This document shows, piece after piece, positions 10,104 to 29,729 of a DNA stretch of 37,929 nucleotides (position 1 is its first letter; the number at the start of each line of letters is the position of its first letter). Origin of the DNA: a virus; the IMG/VR virus record IMGVR_UViG_3300048918_000230, positions 1 to 37,929 of that record; one strand, 5' to 3'. The position numbers were made by a program, and so were the translations under genes. Under the pieces are notes generated by a model. It saw only the letters and a program-made list of their open reading frames with translations, was not told the origin of the DNA and made no database searches.

Positions 10104-10139
10104 AGCCGAGTGTCGCGTCCTGCGACGGGCGGAGAGACT

Positions 10140-11303: not shown

Positions 11304-11316
11304 TTGATCCTCTTGG

Positions 11317-11329: not shown

Positions 11330-11339
11330 TTACTGCGGG

Positions 11340-11371
11340 TTGACTTTAATCAATTCTGACGATGCCGTCAA
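11340..11371 (-). promoter_or_regulatory. SSB operon promoter with composite operator
   Basis: The minus-strand -35 is TTGACG (11366-11371) and the -10 is TAAAGT (11343-11348), 17 bases apart. The palindrome TGACGATGCCGTCA (11357-11370) covers the -35, and TTGACTTTAATCAA (11340-11353, TTGA-N6-TCAA) covers the -10. The same pair of palindromes recurs at 14385-14448 and 18322-18374. The -35 overlaps the stop codon of the DUF2800 gene, so this is an internal operon promoter. Confidence 0.7.
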
Positions 11372-13287: not shown

Positions 13288-14366
13288 TGCGGGATCCCCA
13301 GCGCGTCCAGGCGGGCGCTAAATTGCGGGATGAACGCCGGGGCCACGGCCAGCATGGCCACCGCCTGCACCTGGCCGCCCGTGAGCTCGGACACGATCGC
13401 GCCGGCACTGTCAGCCGTGAGCAAGCCCGCGCTGATCGCCTTGGTGACGCGTGGCAGAAGCGTGGCCATCGTGACGGTGTTAGAGCCGTCCGTGCCGGGC
13501 GTAGTCTGCGGCGATGCTTGCGGCATAGTCGGCATCGCCGCCGGTGCGTTTCCCACCGGTGCACCAGCAGGGACCGGGGGCGGCAAGGCAGCGGGCGGCG
13601 GCATAGCAGGGGCGCCAGTCGTGGCGGCGGCGTTTCCCGCGCCCACGGCGGCCTTGAGCTGGGCTTTGCGCTCGTTGAGGTACGCCTCGCCCGTGCCGCG
13701 CTTCACTTTCCATTTGCCGTCCTGGGTCTTGGTCTTGGTGCTGGCGTGGATGCTCGCGTCCCACGGCACGCCCTCGCTATCCAGTTCAACGCCGACGTTC
13801 GCCGGGGTACTCGCCCCAGCCGTTTGCGCGCCATTGCTCGGTGCGGGCGGCGTGCCATTCGGCGTCGCTGAGGGCACAGCCGGGGCGTTTGGGACGCTAC
13901 CCGGCGGCGGGGGGATGACCGGAGCAGCCGCCGCACCAGGCGCGGGCGGAACAGGCAATGCCGTCGTGGATGCCGCCGGCTCGCTCATCGAGGCCGCACC
14001 AGTCGATACAGGGCTCGGGGAAGATGCAGAACCCGAGGCGGCCAAGGCGTTTCCCGCGCCAAAGCCCACCGTGGCCGGATCCGGCAGCGGCTTGGCGTGG
14101 CCAGCGTCCGCGAACGCTTCGCGCGCCGTGGGGATGCCGGCGGCCGGATTGTCGGCCGGGTCCAGCTGCGTTTGGCCAGCGTAGGGCGCTGCGACGGCCT
14201 GCGGCATACCGACCACGCGCTCGCCCATCACCTTGTCGTCCAGCGCGGCGCGGGTTTGCTCCGCCGTGGAGCCCTGCGCCAGCTGCGTGAACAGCGCGGC
14301 GAGCGCCAGGAGTTGCGGCCCGTCCGAGCGGCGCGGGTCGATGATTTCTAAGTTCATTTTGATCAT
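13284..14366 (-). CDS. Pro/Ala-rich phage protein with a PWDASIHA-type motif
   Basis: The product is 360 residues (ATG at 14366) or 357 (ATG at 14357), with a weak ribosome site for both. A helical N-terminus (LLALAALFTQLAQG) is followed by more than 100 residues of Pro/Ala/Ser-rich low complexity. Then comes a compact motif near residues 193-222: ELDSEGVPWDASIHA and then TQDGKWKVKRG. I recognise this motif from several unrelated phage hypothetical proteins, where its function is not known to me. A second low-complexity stretch and a helical C-terminus end the protein. It is the first gene of the leftward replication operon and faces the composite operator region. Confidence 0.65.
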   Translation of the reverse strand: MIKMNLEIIDPRRSDGPQLLALAALFTQLAQGSTAEQTRAALDDKVMGERVVGMPQAVAAPYAGQTQLDPADNPAAGIPTAREAFADAGHAKPLPDPATVGFGAGNALAASGSASSPSPVSTGAASMSEPAASTTALPVPPAPGAAAAPVIPPPPGSVPNAPAVPSATPNGTPPAPSNGAQTAGASTPANVGVELDSEGVPWDASIHASTKTKTQDGKWKVKRGTGEAYLNERKAQLKAAVGAGNAAATTGAPAMPPPAALPPPVPAGAPVGNAPAAMPTMPQASPQTTPGTDGSNTVTMATLLPRVTKAISAGLLTADSAGAIVSELTGGQVQAVAMLAVAPAFIPQFSARLDALGIPQ

Positions 14367-14384
14367 GTGCTAGTCCAAGAAAGG

Positions 14385-14449
14385 TTGAGGATAGTCAACA
14401 AATTTATTGATGCCCGTCAATAGTAGTGTTATTCTGACGGTTCCGTCAA
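14385..14449 (-). promoter_or_regulatory. leftward replication promoter with three operator palindromes
   Basis: The minus-strand -35 is TTGACG (14444-14449) and the -10 is TACTAT (14420-14425), with an 18-base spacer. A second TTGACG at 14415-14420 could serve an alternative start. Palindromes are TGACGGTTCCGTCA (14435-14448), TTGATGCCCGTCAA (14407-14420) and TTGAGGATAGTCAA (14385-14398). The -35 region TTGACGG-N3-CGTCAGAAT is shared with the SSB promoter at 11371. Confidence 0.62.
14407..14435 (+). promoter_or_regulatory. rightward replication promoter (divergent)
   Basis: A plus-strand -35 TTGATG (14407-14412) and -10 TATTCT (14430-14435) are 17 bases apart, directing transcription toward the methyltransferase gene. 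The -35 lies in one TTGA-N6-TCAA palindrome and the start site would fall in the TGACGGTTCCGTCA palindrome, so one set of bound regulators could control both divergent operons. No good ribosome site precedes 14475. Confidence 0.5.
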
Positions 14450-14474
14450 TAACTATTTTTGCCATAACACAACT

Positions 14475-17233
<2,759 letters not shown>

Positions 17234-17243
17234 GGAGGCCGTT

Positions 17244-17579
17244 ATGCTTGACCTTTTATCCCCTACTCCCGCGCCCGCAAAGCCAGAATGTAAGGGGGCG
17301 TTTGTGCGCTACCGCGAATCCTCGTTTGCGCTCAAGGCCGTGCGCGGCGTCAAAACCACGTGGGAGCTCTACGAGCTGGAAAGCCGTTCGTGCCCCGGCT
17401 GCGCGCAATGCCTGTCCATCTTTGATGACTTGCGCGAGTTCCCCGACCGCGTGGAACTGGACCCGGCGCTCCAAAATGGCGACATGGCCGTCCTGAGCAT
17501 CAAAGTGGATTCGGTGGATTGGGAAACGGGGCACGCCGACGACTGGCACGTTGTAGCCACGAAGGTGGCGCCATGCTAG
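17244..17579 (+). CDS. hypothetical protein, 111 aa
   Basis: The ATG at 17244 is preceded by a strong TGAGGAGG site, so the longer frame from 17115 is rejected. The N-terminus is short and Pro-rich. Then comes a beta-rich part with SCPGCAQC near residue 52, a tight three-Cys cluster. The C-terminus ends in DWETGHADDWHVVATKV. No family is recognised. The stop overlaps the next start. Placement between helicase and nuclease suggests a replication or recombination accessory. Confidence 0.75.
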   Translation: MLDLLSPTPAPAKPECKGAFVRYRESSFALKAVRGVKTTWELYELESRSCPGCAQCLSIFDDLREFPDRVELDPALQNGDMAVLSIKVDSVDWETGHADDWHVVATKVAPC

Positions 17580-17830
17580 ACAACATCGCTAAACAACAGG
17601 CCGAGGCCGCGCAGCTGCGCCCGCTGCTCCAAGGTGTCGCGGACGGCAAACTCACGCGCCGCGGCTACGTGGTTTTTACGCTCCTGTGGGATGGCCCCCG
17701 CGCCGCGCCCGCCGACATTAAGCGCAAGGCCCGCGAGGCGTCGGAGGCGGGCTTGATCACGTGGGGCTGCGCCACCGGGCCGCGCGTCGTGGCCACGCTC
17801 ACCGACAAGGGCCGCGAGGTGCTCGGATGA
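17573..17830 (+). CDS. small winged-helix-like protein, 85 aa
   Basis: The ATG at 17573 overlaps the previous stop. The order of elements resembles a minimal winged helix: a helix (AQLRPLLQGVADG), LTRRGYVVFTLL, a candidate recognition helix (ADIKRKAREASEAGLITWG) and a wing ending in VATLTDKGREVL. That last phrase is typical of MarR/PadR-like domains. A DNA-binding role, perhaps regulatory, is plausible but unproven. The stop overlaps the start of the VRR-NUC gene (ATGA). Confidence 0.7.
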   Translation: MLDNIAKQQAEAAQLRPLLQGVADGKLTRRGYVVFTLLWDGPRAAPADIKRKAREASEAGLITWGCATGPRVVATLTDKGREVLG

Positions 17831-18303
17831 ATCTGGAGGCATGGGCAATTCAATGGGGCGTGCCCTATGCGGCGCTGGCGGACCTGCGCGACCGGATGCG
17901 GCTGGCCGGTGGCGACTACATGGACGACAAGGCGGGCGAGTCCGAGGCGGCCGTCCAGGCACAGGTGCGGCTGGAGGCGTCCCGCAAGGGCGTTCTACTG
18001 TGGCGCAACAACGTGGGCGCGCTCAAGGACGAGCGCGGCGTCATGGTGCGCTACGGCCTGGCCAACACCAGCAAGGGGGAAAACAAGGTGCTCAAGTCCG
18101 CCGACCTCATCGGCGTGCGGCCGGTGCTGATCGGCCCCCAGCACGTGGGCCAGCTGCTCGGCCAGTTCGTGTCCCGCGAGGTGAAAGAAAAGGGATGGAC
18201 GTATAGCGGCACCGAGCGCGAGCAGGCCCAGCTGGCGTGGGCAAACCTCATCCTGTCATGCGGTGGGGACGCCTCGTTCTGCACCGGCGCCGGCACATTG
18301 TAG
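17827..18303 (+). CDS. VRR-NUC domain nuclease
   Basis: The product is 158 residues. The conserved pattern is visible: ESEAAVQAQVRLEASRKG, then LLWRNNVGAL, SADLIGVRP with the catalytic Asp, FVSREVKEKGW with the E-x-K pair, and REQAQLAWANLILSCGGDA. Stand-alone VRR-NUC proteins are common in phages and are thought to act as structure-specific or Holliday-junction nucleases in replication and packaging. The start is in an ATGA overlap. The gene is the last before the internal promoter of the TetR-like gene. Confidence 0.88.
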   Translation: MNLEAWAIQWGVPYAALADLRDRMRLAGGDYMDDKAGESEAAVQAQVRLEASRKGVLLWRNNVGALKDERGVMVRYGLANTSKGENKVLKSADLIGVRPVLIGPQHVGQLLGQFVSREVKEKGWTYSGTEREQAQLAWANLILSCGGDASFCTGAGTL

Positions 18304-18320
18304 GAGCCCTCCTATAAATG

Positions 18321-18374
18321 TTGACGGCCCCGTCAGTATTGAGTAGCATCAAGGAAATTATTGACCAACATCAA
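18321..18374 (+). promoter_or_regulatory. promoter and composite operator of the TetR-like gene
   Basis: The -35 is TTGACG (18321-18326) and the -10 is TAGCAT (18344-18349), with a 17-base spacer. The palindrome TGACGGCCCCGTCA (18322-18335) overlaps the -35, and TTGACCAACATCAA (18361-18374, TTGA-N6-TCAA) lies just past the predicted start site. The promoter lies over the first codons of the longest frame from 18318, which argues for the later start at 18378. Confidence 0.65.
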
Positions 18375-18377
18375 CAC

Positions 18378-18704
18378 ATGATCACTGACACCAACAAAGC
18401 GCGGCCTGGCCGCCCGGCCCGGATTTCCGGCGACGCAATCCTCGCGGCGGGGCTCAAGCTGGCCGAGGCCAAGGGCTACCAGCAAGTGACGCGGGATGAC
18501 CTGGCCGCGGCGGTGGAGGCGTCCCCGGCGGCAATCTCGTTTCACTTCGGCACCATGCACCAATTCCAACGTGCCGTGATGCGCGCGGCCGTGCACCAGC
18601 AAAACCTGCGCGTGATCGCCCAAGGGCTGGCCGTGCGCGACCCCCAAGCCCTGCACGCCTCGCCCGAGCTGCAGCAAAAAGCCGTCAACGCCATCAAGGG
18701 ATAA
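18378..18704 (+). CDS. single-domain TetR-like regulator, 108 aa
   Basis: I chose the ATG at 18378 because the earlier ATG at 18318 lies within the promoter; the ribosome site is weak. Residues about 14-66 match a TetR_N DNA-binding domain: ISGDAILAAGLKLAEAKGY, then VTRDDLAAAVEASPAAISFHFG, with the HTH ending in the S-F-H-F that replaces the usual Y-x-x-F. Only about 40 residues follow, so the ligand-binding/dimerisation domain of normal TetR proteins (about 200 residues) is missing. Two palindromes at its own promoter, shared with both replication promoters, suggest autoregulation and control of those operons. It directly precedes the primase-helicase with one spacer base. Confidence 0.78.
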   Translation: MITDTNKARPGRPARISGDAILAAGLKLAEAKGYQQVTRDDLAAAVEASPAAISFHFGTMHQFQRAVMRAAVHQQNLRVIAQGLAVRDPQALHASPELQQKAVNAIKG

Positions 18705-18705
18705 C

Positions 18706-21120
18706 ATGCACCAGCTGCCCGCCGCGCTGGCCGCGATGGCCGCCTATCGGCAATTCATTGTGTGCCAGCTGGTGCCGGATCCCGACCACCCCGGCAAAAC
18801 GTTCAAGTACCCGCTGAACATTTACGACGGCAAGAAACACGACGCCCACGACCCGGCTATCTGGCTGGACGCGGCCACCGCGTGCGCCGTCGTCACCAGC
18901 TGGGGCGCGAGCTACTGCGTGGGCTTCACGTTCACCGAGCAAGACCCGTTCTGGTTTATCGACGTGGACAACTGCCTTGACGCCGCCACCGGGCAATGGA
19001 CGCCGATCGTGGCCGAGCTGTCCGCCGCGCTGCCTGGCGCTGCGTGCGAAGTGTCCCAATCGGGCCGCGGGCTCCACTTCTTCGGCACCGGCACCGCGCC
19101 GGCCGAGCGCCGCAAAAAGGACTACACGAACAAGCTGTTCGACCTGTACACGGAAAAGCGGTTCGTGGCGCTCACCGGCCACGGCATCGTGGGCAACATC
19201 GCCACGGAGCACACGCCCGCGCTGTACGCCCTCACGGAGAAGTGGCTCAAGCGCGTGACGACCAGCGACGGGCGCGACGCGGAATGGACCTATGGCCCGT
19301 GCGAGGGCTGGAACGGCCCGGCCGACGACGCCCAGCTCATCAAGCGCGCCATGCAGTCGCAAAGCGCGCGCGGGGCGTTCGGTGGCGCCGCCAGCTTTGC
19401 CGACCTGTGGGAGTGCAACGAGGAGGCGCTCGCCAAGGCATACCCGCCGGACGGCAACGGCAAAGCCGCGTGGGATATGTCGCGCGCCGACCGCGCCCTC
19501 GCCCAGCACCTCATGTTTTGGACGGGCAAAGATTGCGAACGGACACGCCGCTTGATGATGCAGTCCGGGCTGGTGCGCGAAAAGTGGGAGCGGGAAAGCT
19601 ACGTGCTGGCCACGATTCTGTCCGCGTTCGCCGTCCAGCAGTCGGACCAGGTGCTCGCGGACAAACCGCCCGAGCCGGCGCCGATGCTGGCCGCCCCGCT
19701 GCCGGTGTCGGAGGATCCCGACGCCGAGGCCGCACCTGTCGCCAAGTACGTGACCGGCTCCACCTATCTGGACCCGGCCCAGCAAATTTCCATGTTCACC
19801 GGCTGCACCTACGTGTGCGATAAGCACGCCGTGTTGACCCCGGGCGGCTACCTGCTCAAGCCCGAGCAGTTCCGCGTGATGTACGGCGGCTACACGTTCC
19901 TCATGGACCTGGAGAACGCGCGCACCAGCCGCGACGCCTGGGAGGCGTTCAGCCAGTCCCAAGCCTACCGCAGCCCGCGCGCCGATTCGGTATGCTTCCG
20001 GCCCGATCGCGCGCCCGGCGCCCTGATCGACTACGACGGCCAGAAACGCGCCAATCTGTGGTGGCCGGTGGACACGCCGCGCATGGCCGGCGACGCCGCG
20101 CCGTTCCTCAACCACCTGGCCGCGCTGCTGCCCGACGAGCGCGACCGCACGATCCTGCTGTCCTACATGGCCGCCGTCGTCCAGTACCCGGGCATCAAAT
20201 TCCAATGGGCGCCGTTCATCCAGGGCGCCGAGGGCAACGGCAAAACGTTCCTCACGCGTTGCGTGGCGCGCGCTGTGGGGAGCCGCTACACCTATTTCCC
20301 CAAGGCGTCCGACATTGCCGACAAGTTCAACGACTGGCTGTATGGAACCATCTTCGTGGCCGTGGAGGACATTTACATTCCGGGCGGCCGTGACGAAGTG
20401 ATGGAGGAGCTCAAGCCGATGATTACCGGCGACGAGCAGCAAGTCCAGGGCAAGGGCGAGAAGAAAGTCAGCCGCGAAATTTGCTGTAACTTCATGATCA
20501 ACAGCAACCACAAAGACGGCTGGCGCAAGCACAAGAACGACCGCCGCATCGCGCCGTTCTTCACCGCCCAGCAGACCGCCGACGACGTGGCCGAATGGGG
20601 CATGACCGGCGAGTATTTCGAGCGCCTGTATGCGTGGGCACGGGGCGGCGGCTTTGCGATCGTGAACGAGTATTTGCGCGCGTATCAAATCCCCGACGAG
20701 TTCAACCCGGCCACGCGCTGCCAGCGCGCCCCGCTCACGTCCAGCACCGAGGAGGCGATCAGTGCCGGCTTGGGCAGCGTGGAGCAGGAGATTCTGGAGG
20801 CCGTGGAGCAGGACCAACCGGGCTTTGCCGGCGGCTGGATCAGCTCTATGGCTCTCAACCGCCTGCTGGAGCAGATGGGCCGCGCCAACCGCGTGCCGAT
20901 CAACAAGCGCCGCGAGCTGCTGGCCAAAATCGGGTACGACTGGCACCCGGGCCTGGCCACCAATAACGGCCGCGTCAACAACCAGGTGGCACCGGACGGC
21001 GGCAAGCCGGTGCTGTTCGCCAAGATTGGCCACCCCGTCACCCGCATCATGGGGCCGGCGGAGATTGCCAAAGCCTACAGTGAGGCCCAAATGGCCCCGC
21101 TGCTCAAGACCGTGAGCTAG
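18706..21120 (+). CDS. PrimPol-type primase / SF3 helicase fusion
   Basis: The product is 804 residues. The N-terminal primase-polymerase region has FWFIDVDNC near residue 84 (Asp86, Asp88 as metal ligands) and SQSGRGLHFFG near 121, as in AEP-type PrimPol proteins. The C-terminal helicase has Walker A QGAEGNGKT near 506-514, Walker B VAVEDIYIPGG near 550 and a sensor block FMINSNHKDGW near 598, matching the DUF5906/SF3 group. It should prime and unwind at the phage origin, working with family A polymerase and SSB. No other primase or replicative helicase is present. Confidence 0.9.
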   Translation: MHQLPAALAAMAAYRQFIVCQLVPDPDHPGKTFKYPLNIYDGKKHDAHDPAIWLDAATACAVVTSWGASYCVGFTFTEQDPFWFIDVDNCLDAATGQWTPIVAELSAALPGAACEVSQSGRGLHFFGTGTAPAERRKKDYTNKLFDLYTEKRFVALTGHGIVGNIATEHTPALYALTEKWLKRVTTSDGRDAEWTYGPCEGWNGPADDAQLIKRAMQSQSARGAFGGAASFADLWECNEEALAKAYPPDGNGKAAWDMSRADRALAQHLMFWTGKDCERTRRLMMQSGLVREKWERESYVLATILSAFAVQQSDQVLADKPPEPAPMLAAPLPVSEDPDAEAAPVAKYVTGSTYLDPAQQISMFTGCTYVCDKHAVLTPGGYLLKPEQFRVMYGGYTFLMDLENARTSRDAWEAFSQSQAYRSPRADSVCFRPDRAPGALIDYDGQKRANLWWPVDTPRMAGDAAPFLNHLAALLPDERDRTILLSYMAAVVQYPGIKFQWAPFIQGAEGNGKTFLTRCVARAVGSRYTYFPKASDIADKFNDWLYGTIFVAVEDIYIPGGRDEVMEELKPMITGDEQQVQGKGEKKVSREICCNFMINSNHKDGWRKHKNDRRIAPFFTAQQTADDVAEWGMTGEYFERLYAWARGGGFAIVNEYLRAYQIPDEFNPATRCQRAPLTSSTEEAISAGLGSVEQEILEAVEQDQPGFAGGWISSMALNRLLEQMGRANRVPINKRRELLAKIGYDWHPGLATNNGRVNNQVAPDGGKPVLFAKIGHPVTRIMGPAEIAKAYSEAQMAPLLKTVS

Positions 21121-21122
21121 AC

Positions 21123-21314
21123 ATGGACCTCAAACCGCACCAGCACCACCTGTTGGAACTGCGCCGGTTCGCGTTTGAGGTGCTCGTCGTTCTCCCGGCA
21201 GTCCAACCCCAACTAGAGGAAAAACCGAAATGGAAAAACCGTTCCCGTCCGCGCCAACCCGCATTGGTGCCGCTGTCGCCTCCACACTCGCCCCGGTCCA
21301 GTCCGGCGACGTGA
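21123..21314 (+). CDS. possible small ORF, 63 aa (doubtful)
   Basis: An ATG lies two bases after the primase-helicase stop and opens 63 codons. The 3' end overlaps the next gene by 85 bases in another frame and that part is Pro/Ser/Arg-rich, like an out-of-frame shadow. There is no strong ribosome site. If it is not real, 21121-21229 is simply a leader for the gp49-like gene. Confidence 0.25.
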   Translation: MDLKPHQHHLLELRRFAFEVLVVLPAVQPQLEEKPKWKNRSRPRQPALVPLSPPHSPRSSPAT

Positions 21315-22201
21315 TGGCCCCCAAGTCGGACGCCGAGCTCCAGCAGCTCACCGACTCGCTCAAGCCCACCGCGCCGCGCCTCACGCCCGAGCTGATCCAA
21401 TCCGTGATCGTGGACGAAACCTACACGCGCCTGGAGGGCACCAACACCACCGTGTGCCGCCTGCAGCTGGCCAACGGCTTTTGCGTCGTGGGCGTCAACA
21501 ACGGCCCCGTGAGCGCGGCCAACTTCAGCCAGGAACTCGGGTGCGAGTACGCGTACAAGGCGGCCGTGGACCAGGTGTGGCCGCTGGAAGGCTACTTGCT
21601 GGCGCAACGGCTGCACGAGCTGGCCAGCGCACCGGAAGGCACCACCCACGTGGCCAACCGTGTCTACGTCACCGCGCGCAAGATCCAAACCGTTTCCGGC
21701 GCCACGGCAATGGGCGACGAGCTGCCGGTCAACCACGCGCGGCTGATTTTGGAGAACGGCGAGGACGCGACGATCGACGCGACCATGACGTCGCGCTACT
21801 GGCCGACCGCCGGCGACTACTATGTCGTGCAATCGGACGGCTACGCCTACATCAACCCGGCCGACGTGTTCGAGCGCAAATATGCCAGCCTGGCCGGTGT
21901 GGAGCGCAAGCCCGCCGGCGGCAACCTGTTCCGCAAAAAGCCCGTGACCGTGGAGGCCATCACTTTCGAGCAGCTGGTCCAGCACGGCCGCGACAACGGC
22001 GGCAACATCGTGGACGGGATGCCGTGGTCCTTCGAGTACAAAGGCCACCCGATCACGCACGAGAACGATCAGTGCTACCTGATCCCGACGAAAGAGGGCA
22101 CGATGCGCTTTACCCCGGATGACATGCTCATCACTGGCGTGCAAGGCGAAATCTATCCGTGCAAGCGGGACATTTTCGCCGCGACCTACGACCGGGCGTA
22201 A
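21230..22201 (+). CDS. gp49-like fusion protein (Gp49 + PGDYG + C-terminal phage domain)
   Basis: The product is 323 residues with an AGAGGAA site before the ATG. Three modules can be read. Residues about 50-130 carry the N4 gp49/phage_gp49_66 pattern (TVCRLQLANGFCVVG, ELGCEYAYKAAVDQVWPLEGY). Residues about 180-215 match the PGDYG-type motif (SRYWPTAGDYYVVQSDGYAY, FERKY). The C-terminus, about 225-323, has the frequent KKPVTVEAITF ... GEIYPCKRDIFAATYD module. Functions of all three are poorly known. It is the last gene of the operon and a strong terminator follows within 15 bases. Confidence 0.75.
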   Translation: MEKPFPSAPTRIGAAVASTLAPVQSGDVMAPKSDAELQQLTDSLKPTAPRLTPELIQSVIVDETYTRLEGTNTTVCRLQLANGFCVVGVNNGPVSAANFSQELGCEYAYKAAVDQVWPLEGYLLAQRLHELASAPEGTTHVANRVYVTARKIQTVSGATAMGDELPVNHARLILENGEDATIDATMTSRYWPTAGDYYVVQSDGYAYINPADVFERKYASLAGVERKPAGGNLFRKKPVTVEAITFEQLVQHGRDNGGNIVDGMPWSFEYKGHPITHENDQCYLIPTKEGTMRFTPDDMLITGVQGEIYPCKRDIFAATYDRA

Positions 22202-22215
22202 CGTCCGATTTGACG

Positions 22216-22239
22216 AAATGGCCCTCCGGGGCCATTTTT
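22216..22239 (+). terminator. strong rho-independent terminator after gp49-like gene
   Basis: A 9-bp perfect stem AAATGGCCC / GGGCCATTT (22216-22224 with 22229-22237) with a tccg tetraloop is followed by a T run (22235-22239). It ends the rightward replication operon just before the next promoter. Confidence 0.93.
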
Positions 22240-22242
22240 AGC

Positions 22243-22271
22243 TTGCAATGCTTAAGTAACTTAAGTATAGT
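22243..22271 (+). promoter_or_regulatory. early rightward promoter with TTAAGT palindrome in spacer
   Basis: A -35 TTGCAA (22243-22248), a 17-base spacer and a -10 TATAGT (22266-22271) make a near-consensus sigma70 promoter. The palindrome TTAAGTAACTTAA (22252-22264) fills the spacer, exactly as at 7345-7373. It drives the accessory cluster from 22297. Confidence 0.85.
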
Positions 22272-22296
22272 TCGTCCATCAACAACGGAGGAACCT

Positions 22297-22434
22297 ATGG
22301 AACAGCTGTTCATCACCTACCAGCAAGGGCTGGATTTTCACCCGGAGTTTGACGCCGCGATGGACGAGGCGTTCGCACCCACCGCATTGGCGCTGGAGCC
22401 GGTTGACCCCGTGATGACGTATTGCGGGCTCTAA
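22297..22434 (+). CDS. small acidic protein, 45 aa
   Basis: The ATG has a perfect ACGGAGG site and is the first start after the strong 22243 promoter, about 20 bases after the predicted transcript start. The product is short, acidic and has a QQGLDFHPEFDAAMDEAF core. It is not recognised. Small acidic proteins expressed first from strong phage promoters are often inhibitors of host enzymes, which is only a possibility here. Confidence 0.7.
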   Translation: MEQLFITYQQGLDFHPEFDAAMDEAFAPTALALEPVDPVMTYCGL

Positions 22435-22436
22435 CC

Positions 22437-22565
22437 GTGCGCCCGTTTGACTGGTTCCTCCTGGGCCTCATCGGCCTGTGCATCTACGGCGCGCTGGACC
22501 CGGACGCCGCCGCGACGCTGCTGTCGCAAATCCGCAACAACCTAGCAACTTTGATAGGGAAATAG
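22437..22565 (+). CDS. small membrane protein, 42 aa (GTG start)
   Basis: A GTG at 22437 opens a frame to TAG at 22563-22565. The product begins (M)RPFDWFLLGLIGLCIYGAL, one hydrophobic segment, and ends with a helical tail (LSQIRNNLATLIGK). It lies two bases after one gene and three bases before the next, filling the gap exactly. The ribosome site is poor, so translation is probably coupled. Confidence 0.55.
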   Translation: MRPFDWFLLGLIGLCIYGALDPDAAATLLSQIRNNLATLIGK

Positions 22566-22568
22566 ACC

Positions 22569-23060
22569 ATGCACACCAAACCCGCGCGCGAGCTCGTCCC
22601 CGGTGACGTGTTCGTCAATCCTCACCCGTCCAGCGCGATCCGCTGGGCCGTGCTGTGCGTCGTGCCGGCCGACAACGGCCACGTGGCGCTCACGCTCGGC
22701 GGCCTGGGCGAGCTGCCGCCCCACATCAACCGGCTGGCCAACGCCTCGTACAACGGCACGCTGGAGCTGGAAATGGTGGGGCCGGTCCTCACGCCGGCGC
22801 AGCAGCACGCGGACGAGCTGCTCGCCTTGGTGGAGGAATTTCTCCGCGATGGCGTCCGGCCCGACGCGATGAACCGTGCGGCCGCGCTGCGCGACCTGAT
22901 CGCGCCTACCGTACCGCCAACTGTGGTCGAGGTGCTATCCCGCTTGGAAGAGTACGCGGGCCTTGTGACCGGCTCCGAGGGCGCCAGCTCGCCCGAAGCA
23001 ATGCAAGCCCGCGCGTTCGTGGAGCGCGTGCGCCAGCTGGGAGTGCGCGCCAATGGCTAA
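22569..23060 (+). CDS. hypothetical protein, paralogue of the next gene, 163 aa
   Basis: The N-terminal half has a small beta-barrel-like pattern: RELVPGDVFVNP, then AVLCVVPADNGHVALTLGGLGELP and LTPAQQHADELL. The same order appears in the following gene (RALQLGDVILSD, AVLSAVATDPGHVVLTLGMIGPLP, LTPAQAVADQLL), so the two are tandem paralogues with diverged C-terminal helical halves. No outside family is recognised. It overlaps its paralogue by 8 bases. Likely an accessory early protein. Confidence 0.75.
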   Translation: MHTKPARELVPGDVFVNPHPSSAIRWAVLCVVPADNGHVALTLGGLGELPPHINRLANASYNGTLELEMVGPVLTPAQQHADELLALVEEFLRDGVRPDAMNRAAALRDLIAPTVPPTVVEVLSRLEEYAGLVTGSEGASSPEAMQARAFVERVRQLGVRANG

Positions 23061-23574
23061 CGTCCTCACCCCCGTGCGTGCGCTGCAGCTGGGCGACGTG
23101 ATCCTCTCGGACGACCAGCCGCCGTGCGCCGTGCTGTCCGCCGTGGCGACCGACCCGGGCCACGTGGTGCTTACGCTGGGCATGATTGGCCCGCTGCCCC
23201 AGCCGGACCTGCCGCGCGCCATCAACGTGCGTTGGTGTGCAGATGCCAAGGTGCACGTGCAACGGCTGGACCTCACGCCGGCGCAGGCTGTGGCCGACCA
23301 GCTGCTCGCGGCGGCACGCGCCCATGCCGACATGCTGGAGGCGCTCCGCAAGGAAAAGGGGCTCACCTACGAGCACACCAACGTGGGCTACGTGGCCGAA
23401 CTGGTGGCGCTCAACGCGCTGCTGGAGCCGCTCGGGCCACCCCCGCCGCCGCCCAGCGTGGAGGAAATCGTCAAGGCGCTGGCCGATGTGGTGAACAAGC
23501 GCGAGGGCGCCGACAAGGCGGCCACGGACGTGCTGGACCGCGCGCGCCGCGCCGGAGTGTGGTCCCATGCGTGA
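23053..23574 (+). CDS. hypothetical protein, paralogue of the previous gene, 173 aa
   Basis: It shares the N-terminal about 90 residues with the 22569 product by order of motifs and spacing. The C-terminal half is helical with a PPPPPPS linker near residue 135 and ends RARRAGVWSHA. The start overlaps the previous gene and the stop overlaps the next small membrane protein gene. The pair probably arose by duplication within the phage lineage. Function unknown. Confidence 0.75.
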   Translation: MANVLTPVRALQLGDVILSDDQPPCAVLSAVATDPGHVVLTLGMIGPLPQPDLPRAINVRWCADAKVHVQRLDLTPAQAVADQLLAAARAHADMLEALRKEKGLTYEHTNVGYVAELVALNALLEPLGPPPPPPSVEEIVKALADVVNKREGADKAATDVLDRARRAGVWSHA

Positions 23575-23659
23575 CATGCTGCTGATCCTGCTCGCGGCCG
23601 ACATTGCCGCCGCCTGGGCCATTTTCAAACTCATTAACCGATGGAGCGCCAAGCCGTGA
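23567..23659 (+). CDS. very small membrane protein, 30 aa
   Basis: The frame runs from ATG 23567 to TGA 23657-23659 and overlaps both neighbours. The product is one hydrophobic helix (MLLILLAADIAAAWAIFKLI) with a short basic tail. The overlap arrangement and hydrophobicity support it, but the size makes it uncertain. Confidence 0.45.
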   Translation: MRDMLLILLAADIAAAWAIFKLINRWSAKP

Positions 23660-24099
23660 ACCAAGACCCCACCGCCATTTGCCCCGGCTGCTGCCAACGC
23701 GTACCCGCGTGCATGTGCAACGCAGGCCCGGCCAGGTTCGACCGCGTGACGCGCGGGCCGGATGGGAAGTTCTGCCACTGGTTCCGCGGCGAGCCGGTGA
23801 ACGACCCCGGCGCCCAGCCCGAGCAGCGCCCGCACGACTGGCCGTATTGCGCGACCGAGCGCGCGCACCAGGACGTGGCCCAACATGGCACCGGCGCCGT
23901 ATGTGTGGGCGCGGACGGCGTTTTGCGGCATGTGCCGGTGCACGACATGTACCTCTCCCCCGTGCCGGATCCTGTCGGCACCACGGACGCCCTCGTCGCG
24001 CTGGCCGACCTGGAGGCCGCCGCCAAGCAAGGCCCGGCCAACCCGGAGCGCGTGCGCCAGCTGGCGGCCAAGGTGCGCGCGGCGCTGCTGCCGGAATGA
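23641..24099 (+). CDS. Cys-rich hypothetical protein, 152 aa
   Basis: The start is ATG 23641, with GTG 23656 as an alternative. The N-terminus has CPGCCQRVPACMC, five Cys in 13 residues, suggesting zinc binding. Further Cys/His pairs follow (KFCHWF, PYCATERAH). The C-terminal third is a helical region with ALVALADLEAAAKQG. It is not recognised. It sits in the accessory cluster after the paralogous pair. Confidence 0.7.
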   Translation: MERQAVNQDPTAICPGCCQRVPACMCNAGPARFDRVTRGPDGKFCHWFRGEPVNDPGAQPEQRPHDWPYCATERAHQDVAQHGTGAVCVGADGVLRHVPVHDMYLSPVPDPVGTTDALVALADLEAAAKQGPANPERVRQLAAKVRAALLPE

Positions 24100-24167
24100 C
24101 GTGCGACACCGCCCGCGCCCCCGTGCCAAAATGCAACGGAGGAGGGCAACGACCATGTGGGGAATAA
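24096..24167 (+). CDS. tiny ORF, 23 aa (doubtful)
   Basis: An ATGA overlap with the previous gene opens 23 codons that end within the next gene. It may act only as a leader that brings ribosomes to the GGAGG site of the following gene. There is no other support. Confidence 0.2.
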   Translation: MTCDTARAPVPKCNGGGQRPCGE

Positions 24168-24322
24168 TCCGAGAGCGCCGGGTCCACACCCAGCGCCGTG
24201 AGTTTGAAACCTGGGCGCGCGGCGCGGGCTACGACGTGGCCGCCGATGCGCTCGGCAACTACACCAATGCCGCAACCAGTCACGCGTGGATCGTGTGGCG
24301 GGCCGCGCGCGGCATCAAGTAA
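24155..24322 (+). CDS. small basic protein, 55 aa
   Basis: ATG 24155 follows a strong GGAGGAGGG site. The product is basic at its N-terminus (MWGIIRERRVHTQRREFE) and continues with a GYDVAADALGNYTNAAT stretch and a W-x-x-W end. The spacing of aromatic and Gly residues resembles small proteins found in many phage accessory regions, but no function is recognised. It is the last rightward gene before the convergent leftward gene and overlaps it by 8 bases. Confidence 0.65.
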   Translation: MWGIIRERRVHTQRREFETWARGAGYDVAADALGNYTNAATSHAWIVWRAARGIK

Positions 24323-24863
24323 ATTTCCATTCCGTTTCGCCGTTGTTCCGCGTGGCCTCGGCCTGGCTCGTGAGGCGCTCCAATATCTGCTGGCGGATCG
24401 CGTTGCCGTCCGGGCCATACTGCCGGTGGAGGGCGCTTTCGATCTGCCGCAGCGCCGGCACGTCCGCCGTGTCCACGTTCACCATGTAAAGCCACGTCCC
24501 ACCCTCGGGCTTGGTGCCCTGCCGCGTGCCCACCACGTCGCCCGGTGCCAGCTCCGGGTGGCGCGCGAGCGTGAGCCCGACCGCCGCATCGAGCAGCCCG
24601 TCCGCGCCCGGCGGGTAAGTGCGCAGCCTGATCCGCGCCAACCGCTCGCGCACCGCCTGCCGTTCCGGCGTCATCGGCGCAGCTGCCGCCCGGCCCGCAT
24701 CGCCGGAACGGCGCACACCGTCCTGTGCCTCGCGCAGACAGTCCACGCACGCGCCGCAGCTCGTGTAACGCTCGGCCATGTGGTTGTTTCGGCACGGCTT
24801 GCCCGTCCAGTAGGTGCGCTGGCCAGCTGCTTTAGCCTGCGCCTTAGTCATCGTTTGTCGCAT
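24315..24863 (-). CDS. zinc-motif protein (HNH-associated TGKPC motif), 182 aa
   Basis: The ATG at 24863 has a GGGGAG site; an internal ATG at 24851 is possible. Residues about 10-45 form a motif of the type Y-W-TGKPC-x3-H followed by C-x2-C (TGKPCRNNH, SCGACVDC), seen at the start of many phage HNH-type and zinc-finger proteins. The expected HNH core is not evident afterwards. The C-terminal half is helical with an LYMVNVDTADV strand. It may be a DNA-binding accessory or a degenerate endonuclease. It is the only leftward gene between 22 and 38 kb, with convergent ends. Confidence 0.65.
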   Translation of the reverse strand: MRQTMTKAQAKAAGQRTYWTGKPCRNNHMAERYTSCGACVDCLREAQDGVRRSGDAGRAAAAPMTPERQAVRERLARIRLRTYPPGADGLLDAAVGLTLARHPELAPGDVVGTRQGTKPEGGTWLYMVNVDTADVPALRQIESALHRQYGPDGNAIRQQILERLTSQAEATRNNGETEWKFT

Positions 24864-24956
24864 TATGTTTTCTCCCCGAAGATGGTTCTACGCCCGCTCG
24901 TCGCGGGTAGTCCGCATTGTACTATGCGTTTCTTGTAAAAACTATGAGAATATCTT

Positions 24957-24985
24957 AAAAAGTGCCACCCGGAACCCGGCACTTT
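24957..24985 (-). terminator. hairpin terminator or attenuator upstream of 24863 gene
   Basis: An 8-bp stem AAAGTGCC / GGCACTTT (24959-24966 with 24978-24985) with an 11-base loop. Read leftward, the stem is followed by five T (24957-24961 as A), a good intrinsic terminator. Read rightward, the T run is interrupted. It could stop leftward transcripts from the AT-rich island before the 24863 gene, or act in both directions as a boundary. Confidence 0.65.
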
Positions 24986-25128
24986 CACCGTTTTTCTATA
25001 CTCCTCCTATCTCTATTATATTTATACTTATATTATGTATTTATCATACATATAAATATATTCTCTCTATATACAGACTTGTTTATTAAGGGTATTAAGG
25101 GTAAAGAGTAATAAAGGGAAGAAAATCA
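24986..25128. other. AT-rich island, candidate origin or promoter region
   Basis: About 140 bases composed mainly of A and T in an otherwise very GC-rich genome. It contains a hairpin-forming inverted repeat TATGTAT-N5-ATACATA (25034-25052), short TATA-like runs and the iteron-like repeats at 25084-25118. Together with 25129-25293 this is the only long gene-free stretch (24864-25293). A replication origin with an easily melted segment, or the main control region for late genes, is likely. Confidence 0.55.
25084..25118 (+). repeat. iteron-like direct repeats
   Basis: TATTAAGGG occurs twice back to back (25084-25092, 25093-25101), with a related TAATAAAGGG at 25109-25118. The G-rich ends lie on one strand. 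Short tandem repeats beside an AT-rich segment are a typical origin layout. Confidence 0.6.
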
Positions 25129-25234
25129 ATGACTTACAACACCCGGAACGTAGGGGGTGACTTCCGGGCAATGGCGGGTAGCGCGTGGCTATCGTGGCGC
25201 CGTGTGGCGAGTGTGCCGCGCGCCGGGTTATCTG

Positions 25235-25260
25235 TTGGCCTGAAATTTCCCGAGTGGAAT
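25235..25260 (+). promoter_or_regulatory. weak late promoter upstream of small terminase
   Basis: TTGGCC (25235-25240) and TGGAAT (25255-25260), 14 bases apart, are poor as sigma70 boxes. However, the sequence TTGGCCTGAAATTT...CCCGAGTGGAATTT parallels TTGACCTG...CCCGTGTAGAATTT at 27517-27545 upstream of the portal, so a shared late element is likely. Confidence 0.4.
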
Positions 25261-25293
25261 TTTTTGCGGATTTTGTGTATCCTCGGGCGCACT

Positions 25294-26061
25294 ATGGCCC
25301 TCAATACCAACCGTCAACGCTTCGTGCTCGCCCTGCTCGGTTCGCCCAAGTTCAATTTGGCGGACGCGTACATGGCGGCTTACGGCGTGGCCAATCGTGA
25401 GTACGCCGCCAAAGAGGGCTGGGCCTTGCTCCAGATTCCCGAGGTGGCCGAGGCCGTCGAAAAGGGCAAGGCGGAGCGCCTGGCCAAAATGGAATTGGAC
25501 GCCCAAGCCGTGCTCCGCGACATTGCCCTCGGCGTGCAATCGGACGGGTCCGAGCTGGTGGAGCATGTGCTCGACTGCTGCCGCTACTGCCACGGCGACG
25601 GCCACAAATATCAGTTCACGCCGGCCGAGTTCGAGGAGCGGCTCGCCGCCTACCTGCGCGCCGATGCCGAGCGCAAGGGCGGCCCACGCGACCCGCAGGG
25701 GCTGGCGTTCGTTGAGAAATACGGCTGCAGCATCGGCTACGACCCGCGCCGGCCGCCGGCGGACGACTGCCCCGAGTGTTTCGGCCGCGGCATCCCGCGC
25801 GTGCTGGCCAAGGACACCCGGTTCCTGTCCGAAGCGGGCCGCCGCGCCTACGCCGGCGCCAAGTACGGCAAGCACGGCGTGGAAATCCTGACCCGCGACC
25901 GCGACAAGGCGCTCGACCTGGCCGCCAAACACACCGGCGTGGCCAAAGAGCACCTCAAGATCGAGGATTTGCGCACCATCCCCGACGACGAGCTCGCGCG
26001 CCGTACCGCGCAGGCCGAGCACGCGCTCCGCCAGGCTGGCGCCCTGCCGCCCAAACCATGA
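25294..26061 (+). CDS. terminase small subunit with two CxxCxGxG zinc motifs
   Basis: The product is 255 residues from the ATG at 25294. An in-frame ATG at 25129 with an AAGGGAAG site would add 55 residues that look non-coding, so I prefer 25294. The N-terminal 75 residues fit a Terminase_2-type domain (NRQRFVLALLGSPKFNLADA, then LLQIPEVAEAVEKG). Near residues 91-98 and 160-167 there are CRYCHGDG and CPECFGRG, a DnaJ-like pair that probably binds zinc. It should recognise the packaging site and load the large subunit. Its stop overlaps the large-subunit start (ATGA). Confidence 0.85.
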   Translation: MALNTNRQRFVLALLGSPKFNLADAYMAAYGVANREYAAKEGWALLQIPEVAEAVEKGKAERLAKMELDAQAVLRDIALGVQSDGSELVEHVLDCCRYCHGDGHKYQFTPAEFEERLAAYLRADAERKGGPRDPQGLAFVEKYGCSIGYDPRRPPADDCPECFGRGIPRVLAKDTRFLSEAGRRAYAGAKYGKHGVEILTRDRDKALDLAAKHTGVAKEHLKIEDLRTIPDDELARRTAQAEHALRQAGALPPKP

Positions 26062-27527
26062 TTCTCGCCCCCAACGACCCGGCCAACCCGTACCACGTGC
26101 GGGTAGCGTATCTGGAGCTGCTGGAGGAGCAAGTCCGCCGCCTGACCCGCCGCAAGTTCTGGACTTACTACCCCGAGGAGGGGCCGCTCCGGCGCGAGCT
26201 GTACCCCAAGCACATGGCGTTCTTTGCCGCCGGGTCCAAGTTCCGCCAGCGCCTCATGCTGGCCGCCAACCGCGTGGGCAAAACGGAGTCCGTGGGCGTC
26301 TATGAGCTCGTGTGCCACCTGACGGGCATCTACCCCGAATGGTGGGACGCGATCGGCGGGCGCCGCTTCAATCGGCCCATTGTTGCGTGGGCAGCGGGCG
26401 ACACCGGCAAGACCGTGCGCGACATTCTCCAGTTCAAGCTGCTGGGGCCGTGGGGCAACTTCGGCACCGGCGTGCTGCCGGGCGACACGCTCAAGAGCAC
26501 CACGAGCAAACAGGGCGTGTCCGAGGCGATCGAGGGCGTGACGGTGCGGCACGTGTCGGGCGGCACGTCGCAAGTGCTGCTCAAGTCCTACGACCAAAAG
26601 CGCGAAGCGTTCCAGGGCACGGAGGTGGACGTCATCCTCTTGGACGAGGAGCCGCCGCTCGACATTTACACCGAGTGCCTACTCCGCACCATGACGAACA
26701 ACGGCATGCTGATGCTGACGTTCACGCCGCTGATGGGCATGTCGGACGTGGTGCTCGCGTTCCTCCCATCGGGCAAGCTGGACGAGGGCGCGGCCGAGGG
26801 CAAGTTCGTCGTCATGGCCACGTGGGACGACGTGCCCCACCTCTCGCCACAGGTCAAGGCCGAGCTGTTGGCCAGCATCCCGCCGTTCCAGCGTGACGCG
26901 CGCTCCAAGGGCGTGCCGCAGCTGGGCGCCGGCGCCATCTACCCGATTCCCGAGTCGGACATCATCATTCCCGATTTCGCACTCCCCGCGCACTGGCCGC
27001 GCGCCTACGGGTTGGACGTGGGCTGGAACCGAACGGCCGCCGTGTGGGGCGCGATCGACCGCGAGGCCGAAACGGTCTACCTGTACAGCGAGCACTACAA
27101 GGGCCAGGCCGAGCCCGTGGTTCACAAGACCAGCATAGACGCGCGCGGCAAGTGGATCCCCGGCGTGATCGACCCGGCCAGCCGCGGCCGCGGGCAAAAG
27201 GACGGCGAACAGCTGCTCCAGGCGTACAAGGATTTGGGGCTGGACGTCAGCGAAGCGGACAACGGCGTGGAGGCCGGCTTGCTGCGCGTGTGGGAGCGGA
27301 TGAGCGGCGGCAAGCTCAAGGTGTTCAAGTCCATGCAGAACTGGCTGGCCGAGTACCGAATGTACCGGCGCGACGACAAGGGCCACGTGGTCAAGGCCAA
27401 CGACCACCTCATGGACGCCACGCGCTACCTCGTCGTGTCGGGTCTGGACCGGGCCATCGTGCAGCCGATCGCGCTCCACCAGGTACAGACCGAAGCGCCC
27501 CAATCCTTTTTTGGTATTGACCTGTAG
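26058..27527 (+). CDS. terminase large subunit (P22 gp2-like)
   Basis: The product is 489 residues; P22 gp2 has 499. The ATPase has Walker A AANRVGKT near residue 70-77, Walker B VILLDEEPP near 192-200 and a coupling region TFTPLMGM. The nuclease has GLDVGWNRTAA near 317, VIDPASRGRG near 372 and NDHLMDATRYLV near 450, giving the RNase H-like Asp triad. It drives headful packaging. The start is coupled to the small subunit, and the gene ends over the 27517 promoter. Confidence 0.95.
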   Translation: MILAPNDPANPYHVRVAYLELLEEQVRRLTRRKFWTYYPEEGPLRRELYPKHMAFFAAGSKFRQRLMLAANRVGKTESVGVYELVCHLTGIYPEWWDAIGGRRFNRPIVAWAAGDTGKTVRDILQFKLLGPWGNFGTGVLPGDTLKSTTSKQGVSEAIEGVTVRHVSGGTSQVLLKSYDQKREAFQGTEVDVILLDEEPPLDIYTECLLRTMTNNGMLMLTFTPLMGMSDVVLAFLPSGKLDEGAAEGKFVVMATWDDVPHLSPQVKAELLASIPPFQRDARSKGVPQLGAGAIYPIPESDIIIPDFALPAHWPRAYGLDVGWNRTAAVWGAIDREAETVYLYSEHYKGQAEPVVHKTSIDARGKWIPGVIDPASRGRGQKDGEQLLQAYKDLGLDVSEADNGVEAGLLRVWERMSGGKLKVFKSMQNWLAEYRMYRRDDKGHVVKANDHLMDATRYLVVSGLDRAIVQPIALHQVQTEAPQSFFGIDL

Positions 27528-27578: not shown

Positions 27579-29729
27579 ATGAGCGACCTCGCCACGTCAG
27601 CCACAGCCGCCACCGGCCAGCCGTCCCAAACTCCCAGCACCGGACAAGACGCCCTATCCGTGACGCTGCAGGGCCGTTTCGAGAACTGGCTCCAGTCGCG
27701 CGAGCCGCAAGAGCTCAAGTTCCTGGACGCCTACATGGACGCCATGCGCATCCCGCGCGCGGACGACACGGCCGGCACCGGCACGGCCAAGGCGCGCAAG
27801 TCCAAGCTGTTCGTGGGCAGCACGCGCGGCAAAATCCGCTCCGCCCGCGCCAAGATCAAGGACTCGCTGTTCGGGTCCGGCAAGATGCCGTTTGACACCG
27901 CTCCCGTGGACGAGCAGCTCAAGCAATACTCCGACACGATGGAAGAAATTATCTCGTTCCAGCTCAAGGACATGGAGTTCAAGCCGATGCTGGGCGGGGC
28001 CATCAACGCGCTGTGCACCTACGGCACCTCTGTGATCTTCGGGCCGTTCGAGCGCCCCAAAGAGCACGTTACGGTGGGCCTGGCGCCCGACCCGGCCAGC
28101 GGCGTGCCGATGCTGGCGGAGCAGCGGTTCACGTACCGGATGCCGTACTTCGAGCACGGCGCCACGATGGACGTCTATCCCGACCCGGAAAGCCCCGACC
28201 CGCAGCACGGCCGCGGCATCTACTGGAGCAGCTGGAAACAGCCGTCCGAGGTGCGCAGCTGGAAAGGCCAGCCGGGCTACAACGAGCAGGCGATCGACTA
28301 CGCGCTCACGCAGGAGCAGAACACGACCACGAGCCAAGGCTCGGACAAGACCACCGACGTGCGCGCCGCCACCTACCGTTTCGGCAAGGACGGCCGCATC
28401 CGCATCCTGCGCTACATCGGCCAGGTGCGCGCCGACGAGCTGGCAGCATGGACCGGCGAGCAGCTGGCGGAGGGCGCCGACCCGGCCGACACGGTGGAGG
28501 CCGTCGTCATCATGGCCGGCGGCGTAGTGGTCAAGGCCGACCGCTCGCCCTACAAATGCGGCTACCGCCCGGCCCTGCGCGCCGTCTACGAGGAGGTGGA
28601 GCACGAGTTTTGGGGCGTGGGCATCGCGGAGAACAACGACCCGCACCAGCGCGTGGTTAATGCCGCGTTCCGCCTGTTCATCGAGGGCAAGGCGTTTGCG
28701 CTGCTCAAATGCTTCTCCGCCGACCGCTCCAAGTTCCAGCCCACGGAAGATTTCAAGCTCTACCCGGGCAAACAGTTCCAGATGAAACCGGGCCTCACCC
28801 CGGACGAGCGCAAAACTGCGCTCATCTGGCACGACATGGTGGACGTGTCGAACGGCTGGGAAAACGTTATCGCCATGAGCGAGAAGTTCAGCGACGACGA
28901 CACCGGCATCACCAAGTACACGCAGGGCACGGACGCCGACCACCTCAACCGTACCGCGACGGGCATTTCCATGATCATGGGCGCCAGCTCGTTGCCGATG
29001 AAGGAAGTCATCCAGAACATTGACGACATGTGGATCGTGCGGGCCATTGAAGCGCTGATCGACTGGAACATGCAGAACCTGGACCCGGAAACGGTGCGCG
29101 TGCTGCTGGGCGATAAACACGCGGCCATTTGGGCTGAAATCCAACGGTTCGGCAAAACATCGTTCATGGCCTGGAAAGCCACGGGCTCGTCCACTTTCAT
29201 GATGAAAGAGGTGCTCATGCAAAAGCTGCAAGGGTTCCTCCAGCTATGCCTGTCGAACCCGATCACGGCCGAAAAGGTGGACGCGCGCGAGCTGCTCGAA
29301 CAGGTGTGGGACGCCGGCGAGGTGGGCAAGGAAAGCCCGATCCTTACGGACGACGAAATCGCCCGCCGCAAGCAAGAGCAGCAGGGCGGCGCGATCCCGC
29401 CGCAAATTCAGGACGTGCTCCAGAAACAGGAGGCCATGATCCAGAACTTGGAACAGGCGCTCAAGGATGCGCGCGACCAATTCCAGCTCAAAGCGATCGA
29501 GCTGCAGATCAAGGACCGCAACAGCCGCGTGGACGCCGAGGGCAAGCTCGCCAACGTGGAGCTGACCGAGGCCATGCGCGACAAGCTCCAGGCCGAGGTG
29601 CTGGCGATCGTCACCAATGCGTTGGGCCTGGCGATGGTGCCGCCGGCCACGCAACAGGCCGCCGTTACGCTGGGCGATCCGTCCCCCGATGAAGCAACCG
29701 AACCGACCGGAGCCGGGGCCGAAGCATGA
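27579..29729 (+). CDS. portal protein (P22 gp1-like)
   Basis: The product is 716 residues, close to the 725 of P22. I chose the ATG at 27579 over an upstream TTG at 27552; neither has a strong ribosome site. The core contains KLFVGSTRGKIRSARAKI, GTSVIFGPFERP, a YFEHGATMDVYPDP segment and HEFWGVGIAENNDPHQR, the conserved portal region where helices line the channel. The long C-terminal helical part (QEAMIQNLEQALKDARDQF) fits the P22 barrel domain. It forms the dodecameric ring through which DNA enters and leaves. Ends coupled to the 87-residue gene. Confidence 0.92.
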   Translation: MSDLATSATAATGQPSQTPSTGQDALSVTLQGRFENWLQSREPQELKFLDAYMDAMRIPRADDTAGTGTAKARKSKLFVGSTRGKIRSARAKIKDSLFGSGKMPFDTAPVDEQLKQYSDTMEEIISFQLKDMEFKPMLGGAINALCTYGTSVIFGPFERPKEHVTVGLAPDPASGVPMLAEQRFTYRMPYFEHGATMDVYPDPESPDPQHGRGIYWSSWKQPSEVRSWKGQPGYNEQAIDYALTQEQNTTTSQGSDKTTDVRAATYRFGKDGRIRILRYIGQVRADELAAWTGEQLAEGADPADTVEAVVIMAGGVVVKADRSPYKCGYRPALRAVYEEVEHEFWGVGIAENNDPHQRVVNAAFRLFIEGKAFALLKCFSADRSKFQPTEDFKLYPGKQFQMKPGLTPDERKTALIWHDMVDVSNGWENVIAMSEKFSDDDTGITKYTQGTDADHLNRTATGISMIMGASSLPMKEVIQNIDDMWIVRAIEALIDWNMQNLDPETVRVLLGDKHAAIWAEIQRFGKTSFMAWKATGSSTFMMKEVLMQKLQGFLQLCLSNPITAEKVDARELLEQVWDAGEVGKESPILTDDEIARRKQEQQGGAIPPQIQDVLQKQEAMIQNLEQALKDARDQFQLKAIELQIKDRNSRVDAEGKLANVELTEAMRDKLQAEVLAIVTNALGLAMVPPATQQAAVTLGDPSPDEATEPTGAGAEA

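Follow-up and report, generated by a model that had tools for sequence, protein, structure and literature searches.

A candidate late-operon control region that accompanies NrS-1-like PrimPol genes in phage genomes

Direct repeats beside an AT-rich element characterize the two SPP1 replication origins, oriL and oriR, which are described as lying approximately 13 kb apart and as being served by the origin-binding protein gp38 (PMC6316719). One of the two lies within the late region, next to moron genes (PMC6316719). In pRN1, a regulator gene (orf56) is followed by a PrimPol-helicase gene (orf904), and the essential cis element downstream is described as a 100-bp stem-loop without iterons (PMC4234260). 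The recognition site reported for the PrimPol of phage NrS-1 is TTTGGTTA (PMC8718748; PMC7102993). As for late gene expression, Mu C is described as a phage protein that switches on late operons (PMC4461284), and the SPP1 promoter PL1, upstream of gene 1, as having an atypical -35 (PMC6316719).

Here we describe an intergenic element in a viral record of 37,929 bases (66% GC), the whole of which is referred to below as the window. The element resembles SPP1 oriL/oriR in its direct repeats, its AT-rich element and the occurrence of two copies at a similar distance. It differs from SPP1 in that its copies precede late operons and carry a promoter-like box, in that the helicase is PrimPol-type rather than DnaB, and in that it is only a candidate origin. 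As in pRN1 and the proposed AEP-SF3 phage origins, the PrimPol-helicase gene is preceded by a regulator gene, here a candidate one; unlike pRN1, the locus carries iterons and an AT dyad, and its hairpin is not unusually stable. The PrimPol belongs to the same family as that of NrS-1, in which a gene annotated as CII-like precedes the primase. However, the NrS-1 site sits inside a small gene, and this octamer is absent from the window. Compared with Mu C and SPP1 PL1, an iteron array and an AT island are present upstream. Judging from the comparison of related genomes, the gap that holds the element probably serves for late-operon control in a phage that encodes PrimPol.

The gap ahead of the terminase genes

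The control region, taken as the whole intergenic gap (24864..25293, +), lies between a divergent gene of 182 aa (24315..24863, -; phrog_1081, unknown function) and the gene for the terminase small subunit (TerS; 25294..26061, +), which is the first gene of the late block and is followed by the annotated gene for the large subunit (TerL; 25776..27527, +). Thus, the gene-free stretch and its location ahead of terminase, both claimed in an earlier note on this DNA, were borne out. An open reading frame from the ATG at 25129 continues in frame into TerS, and the TerS proteins of relatives align from residue 1 at 25294. The layout is shared by four viral contigs (L003, L004, L005 and L027), in which TerL is 76-83% identical to that of the window.

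The genes of the PrimPol module include a ResIII/Helicase_C helicase (15470..17233, +) and an NrS-1-like PrimPol with a helicase part (18706..21120, +). Directly upstream of PrimPol is the gene for a TetR-type HTH protein (phrog_8723; 18318..18704, +), a candidate regulator. The phage also encodes a DNA polymerase (phrog_17; 7374-9998, -), and the PrimPol may therefore act here mainly as a primase-helicase. In the relative G005, matches to genes of both window ends were found 17 bases apart (29024-29041), so that the record is probably near complete and its ends cut arbitrarily.

Within the gap, an AT-rich island (24995..25080, limits by eye) forms the first AT peak of the record; a 120-bp segment at 25017 reached 78% AT compared with a mean of 34% and ranked first in the record, in agreement with the earlier note. 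The inverted repeat TATGTAT-N5-ATACATA, also claimed there, was exact at 25034-25052 (0.03 matches expected at ≤3 mismatches). It lies within a larger AT-rich dyad (25017..25060) with 10-bp arms at 25017-25026 and 25051-25060. The flanking terminator fared less well. A hairpin, AAAGTGCC-N11-GGCACTTT, was present at 24959-24985, but by eye it was not conserved in the alignment of relatives. Our hairpin scanner, with a loop limit of 8, missed this N11-loop hairpin, and the hairpin that it did report (24913-24928) was weaker and no more than expected by chance.

Immediately after the island, the iteron TATTAAGGG occurs in tandem (25084..25101, +), with copies at 25084-25092 and 25093-25101; this sequence forms part of the profile that detects the element elsewhere. 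The repeats were thus as the earlier note had described, but only two copies are perfect. At ≤1 mismatch, the whole window contained three matches to TATTAAGGG compared with 1.2 expected. The repeat alone is weak evidence, and it becomes significant because it is conserved in relatives. The earlier note had named a lack of such conservation as refuting its reading; we found that all four close relatives align over a block that spans the iterons and the GGGT sites after them. The iteron of L005 reads GTTAGGGGT, suggesting that the repeats within one genome change together.

Three features extend the earlier description. First, CACCCGGAAC occurs on both sides of the island as a direct repeat. 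The left copy (24966..24975, +) has the same ten bases in L003 and L004 and was absent left of the island in L027 and L005 in the alignment of the four close relatives; the right copy lies at 25140..25149 (+). Second, the alignments revealed a conserved AATCAATGACTTAC block (25124..25137, +). Third, a promoter-like box is present at 25184-25196. The right copy of CACCCGGAAC is followed by GTAGGGGGTGA (25150..25160, +), a GGGT-type site in the orientation opposite to CACCC, with counterparts by eye in other copies of the element.

Closer to the TerS ATG, TATCCT (25278..25283, +) is a possible second -10, and by eye the aligned close relatives carry TATCCT or TATTCT at the same place. No Shine-Dalgarno sequence was seen by eye before TerS (25254-25296). 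Given this and the conserved hexamer before the ATG, a near-leaderless TerS message is possible.

Linkage of the element to the PrimPol module rather than to terminase

Two short blastn searches against 50,697 phage records, with an E limit of 1, yielded 19 and 18 of them, several with weak matches (E 0.02-0.7). The records were those of Klebsiella, Edwardsiella, Pantoea, Erwinia, Acinetobacter and Pectobacterium phages and phage vB_KsaM-C1. Among the 11 records that were fetched, 10 encode PrimPol; the one in which we did not detect it is a partial record. The exact 15-mer GGGTATTAAGGGTAA was not useful alone, as its 99 stretches in viral contigs were close to chance by a rough estimate; the profile narrowed them to a few with the whole core. 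One viral contig (L161, 948-1496) contained GGGTATTAAGGGTAA three times within about 550 bases. The profile of the block also matched L111, L123 and L126, which encode a helicase and a PrimPol 40-52% identical to that of the window, without a window-type TerS. The repeat core of approximately 110 bp therefore recurs in phages that have no detectable terminase similarity but encode an NrS-1-like PrimPol.

A profile search of 22 records (the window and 21 others) detected the element in 21, with two copies in 11 and one in 10, and did not find it in Agrobacterium phage 7-7-1. This set is not neutral, since 17 of the 22, the window included, were chosen because they bear the element. Five records were chosen for PrimPol alone (SppYZU01, Scuro, B2, FZ14 and Agrobacterium phage 7-7-1) and four of these carry it; with the first profile, the matches in Scuro, SppYZU01 and B2 were weak, and that in B2 stayed so with the later one (0.009). 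In contrast, a tblastn search with the window TerL among these genomes gave matches in the four close relatives only. Further, the element was absent in 46/46 TerL relatives with at least 1.5 kb of upstream sequence and without a window-type TerS (best E 0.33), drawn from 65 TerL relatives without this TerS.

We also examined the best 80 of 288 PrimPol loci. The element matched at E<0.01 on the PrimPol strand in 32, of which five (L256, L257, L258, L267 and L315) are contigs already in the profile and two pairs are near duplicates (L274/L275 and L264/L268). No match at E<0.01 was found in the other 48, some of which end too early. Ten non-matching loci with a TerS match were inspected by eye: L313, L317 and L318 showed TAGAGGTA repeats with an AT island, L259, L260, L261 and L266 showed other repeats at the same place, and no repeats were seen in L294, L310 and L311. 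In two loci, a reverse profile match lay approximately 88 bases to the left of the forward match (L282, 10992/11079; L308, 12371/12459), indicating a nearly symmetric element. A search of bacterial genomes gave only eight PrimPol loci, at 38-48% identity over the best segment; we therefore name no host.

Element-bearing genomes have in common PrimPol, a helicase, a VRR_NUC-type nuclease, an exonuclease and a small TetR-type HTH protein, which in B2 was detected by PHROG only. Comparison across these genomes shows the element to be linked to the PrimPol module rather than to terminase. The TetR-type gene (phrog_8723) lay upstream of PrimPol in 77 of the 80 loci, within 65 bases in 68. In the window protein, the TetR_N HTH was detected by Pfam (6.1e-8), and the structural model (pLDDT 90) matched 8wp6 (Z 10.8, rmsd 2.1 over 82 residues). 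Foldseek gave no match for the model at E ≤ 0.001; VIA-align had TetR-type regulators, by title, among the matches listed. Beyond the HTH, where the family has its C-terminal ligand-binding and dimerization domain, the monomer model of the 128-aa protein shows short helices only. In many versions that are longer (about 165 aa, L256-L335), a second HTH-like segment seems present by eye, for which there was no Pfam match. The idea that this protein is missing where the element is missing was rejected, as Agrobacterium phage 7-7-1 encodes a divergent copy that matches phrog_8723 at 1.5e-5.

Among 28 loci, similarity of the element tracked PrimPol distance (partial r 0.32, p 0.001), with the caveat that no other protein compared was as long and that PrimPol had served as bait in collecting the loci. 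This covariation persisted when helicase distance, obtained from joined local matches, was controlled. There was no such relation to TetR distance (partial r -0.11, p 0.81). We thus found no support for the TetR-fold protein as the determinant of the iteron sequence, and the covariation pattern speaks against this protein as the setter of specificity.

The octamer TTTGGTTA as the PrimPol site was rejected: it occurred zero times in the window and in 4 of 13 records searched, never at the element. In NrS-1 itself, one TTTGGTTA (17198-17205, minus strand; L336, 9199-9206) lies about 250 bp upstream of TerS; the search covered 8000-26000 of 37159, in which 0.74 matches are expected by chance.

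Position before late genes and the promoter-like box

In the annotated records that we viewed, the element precedes TerS, genes leading into TerL, or neck/tail genes, in the direction of those genes. TerS comes next after a copy, with at most one small gene between them, in BUCT_49532, LAPP1, KsaM-C1, PEAT2, Geezett and B2; in Scuro and SppYZU01, the genes after the copy lead into TerL. In PEi21, the terminase copy is at the record end and TerS at the record start. The second copy is followed by named neck genes in AAM22, Geezett, HF1013 and KsaM-C1, in BUCT_49532 by a tail sheath gene that comes after unnamed genes, and by unnamed genes only, as far as seen, in LAPP1, PEAT2, RCIP0045 and PEi21. 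Outside these views are the FZ14 copies, those at terminase in HF1013, RCIP0045 and AAM22, and the MSW-3 neck copy.

The matched PrimPol loci gave a similar picture, with a late-type gene recognized downstream in 27/32 (all but L273, L275, L279, L288 and L309). In 17 of the 32, the TerS match began 142-449 bp after the profile match. Terminase genes were also downstream in L267 (TerL 2.9 kb on), L304 and L305, and a neck/minor-tail gene was among the first downstream genes in seven loci.

Where two copies are present (11 genomes), they lie on one strand, 12.1-15.4 kb apart. Copies from the same genome were 86-98% alike over the 65-nt core in nine two-copy genomes, compared with between-genome means of 84 and 85%. 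Such likeness, only slightly above the between-genome level in three of the nine, is as would be expected of sites for one trans-acting protein.

We considered whether the element is a packaging site (cos or pac) recognized by TerS. In lambda, cosB has repeats and a bend, which the repeats and bendable AT tract here may resemble; further, the element lies shortly upstream of TerS in many phages. However, the second copy, 12-15 kb away before neck/tail genes in 11 genomes, does not suit a packaging site, nor does the sharing of the element by phages without detectable terminase similarity and its absence in all 46 TerL relatives. We consider a packaging site highly unlikely.

The gene to the left points away from the element in 16 of the 17 copies whose neighbor was seen in the annotation. 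The exception is the neck copy of PEi21, which has a + gene on the left and little AT island. This association would fit a region that is merely the divergent early promoter of the left - gene, with the late genes read from elsewhere. However, the correlation rests on one lineage, and a divergent promoter leaves the conserved box on the right and the second copies before neck genes unexplained; such an arrangement is very unlikely to be the whole account.

The box on the right was analyzed in 43 non-redundant copies of the element (deduplicated from 65), among which related copies persist. The TGTGGYATTATNG motif lay at a median of 138 nt after the profile start (quartiles 125-160). Its total LLR was 363 compared with 232.6 ± 9.0 (maximum 252) in 25 shuffled sets; the motif was seeded after inspection of the copies, with the identical seed for the shuffled sets, and was iterated 30 times for the real set and 15 times for the shuffled ones. 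TGTGG was present in 33/43 copies, compared with 10.8, and at most 19, in 200 shuffles. The TGTGGYATTATNG box reads as TGn plus a -10 hexamer, although plain TGnTATAAT scored per copy was weak (most p >0.05), and the signal sits in the shared motif.

The window has a weak version of this extended -10-like box, CGTGGCTATCGTG (25184..25196, +), which is a putative late promoter; its LLR was 7.5, and those of the closest relatives were also weak (5.5-6.9). In L005, the motif was placed elsewhere than the usual spot. In MSW-3, the neck copy lacks both the box at its usual position and an upstream AT island (AT 0.44 over 75 bases), and by eye the neck copy of PEi21 resembles it.

The element might instead act as RNA, for example as a leader with an antitermination (put-like) site, since its short GGGT/ACCC complements could pair in RNA. 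Folding of the 43 copies was, however, near that of shuffles (mean z -0.08 for the iteron part and -0.59 for the following part, 30 shuffles each), and 24300-25700 contained no Rfam match at gathering scores. In addition, the box lies downstream of the iterons, which would therefore be left untranscribed from it. An RNA element is extremely unlikely.

Comparison thus shows conservation of the module, its place and direction before late genes, the box downstream and the linkage to PrimPol. From this we infer that the box acts as a late promoter and that a phage protein activates it. In the late-control reading, the promoter at 25184-25196 would drive the packaging and virion genes, with transcripts predicted to begin approximately 90 nt ahead of the TerS ATG. 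Upstream of the promoter, the control module would consist of GGGT/ACCC-type iterons on either side of the AT-rich dyad. A phage protein from the replication operon would bind the iterons and aid RNA polymerase at the promoter, and late genes would consequently follow replication. The TetR-fold protein beside PrimPol and PrimPol itself are candidate activators. At more than 100 bp ahead of the expected start, the AT island would not be needed for the promoter and suits an origin better.

A possible role in replication

The earlier note had offered two readings of the gap, late control and a replication origin. Late control is well supported by the comparison, in that terminase or neck/tail genes follow the element and are read in its direction, and a promoter-like box is conserved downstream. 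As an origin, the element is a candidate in its anatomy, with iterons plus an AT-rich dyad, and in its association with the PrimPol module.

In 16 of 19 genomes, the highest AT peak coincides with a copy of the element, and in 8 of 11 two-copy genomes the two highest peaks are those of the two copies. Upstream of the iterons, TATGTAT was found in 14 and ATACATA in 13 of the 43 copies, compared with 4.5 and 3.1 in shuffles. Inverted-repeat arms had a mean of 6.9 compared with 5.7 in shuffles (combined z 7.4); this holds for the sum over partly related copies, and most single copies were not significant. The DNA fold of 24995-25115, which includes the dyad, was not more stable than shuffles (z 0.22), and the rest of the window was scanned just for arms of at least 10. 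A stem-loop origin of the pRN1 type was rejected because the dyad was no more stable than shuffles.

If the element were an origin only, an initiator would bind the iterons, the AT dyad would melt and PrimPol/helicase would load, with the promoter merely adjacent; genomes with two copies would then have two origins, as SPP1 has oriL and oriR. The iterons adjoining the top AT peak, the travelling of the element with the PrimPol module and the tracking of PrimPol distance by its similarity argue for such an origin, as do the spacing of 12.1-15.4 kb between copies, with its SPP1 precedent, and the reverse profile matches in L282 and L308. Conversely, an origin does not predict the placement ahead of late genes, the NrS-1 octamer is absent from the window and the dyad has no unusual stability. 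GC skew, a check proposed in the earlier note, which had named a minimum elsewhere as refuting its reading, gave no support for an origin: in the window, the minimum (8414) lies 16.7 kb from the element and the maximum is at 18522. This evidence is weak because skew in phages also reflects transcription. Taken together, an origin alone seems rather unlikely.

Among the other genomes, the skew minimum falls on the element only in SppYZU01 (1326-1331, 5 bases away), and the next nearest minimum is 2.5 kb from it (AAM22). In PEi21 and AAM22, it is the skew maximum that lies near the terminase copy, at a distance of about 1 kb.

That the same module, besides late control, also works as a replication origin is a tentative reading to which we give somewhat less than even weight. 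In its integrated form, the module would be origin and late promoter at once: an iteron-bound complex would open the AT dyad for PrimPol to load and activate the late operon, and the module would be portable with PrimPol. This particular combination we regard as rather doubtful.

In the literature searched, mostly outside subscription journals, we found no account of the element, and the papers listed for its repeat and box sequences and for the PHROG were from other fields only. The element provides a sequence-defined candidate late switch, and perhaps an origin, for widespread phages with an NrS-1-like PrimPol. This group includes cultured Klebsiella, Edwardsiella, Pantoea and Acinetobacter phages, for which the literature searched held no account of a late switch or an origin. 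Together, the element and the phrog_8723 gene make the late-switch question directly testable. If the dual function is true, the module, single or as an SPP1-like pair, would be a portable, replication-coupled late switch across virion types.
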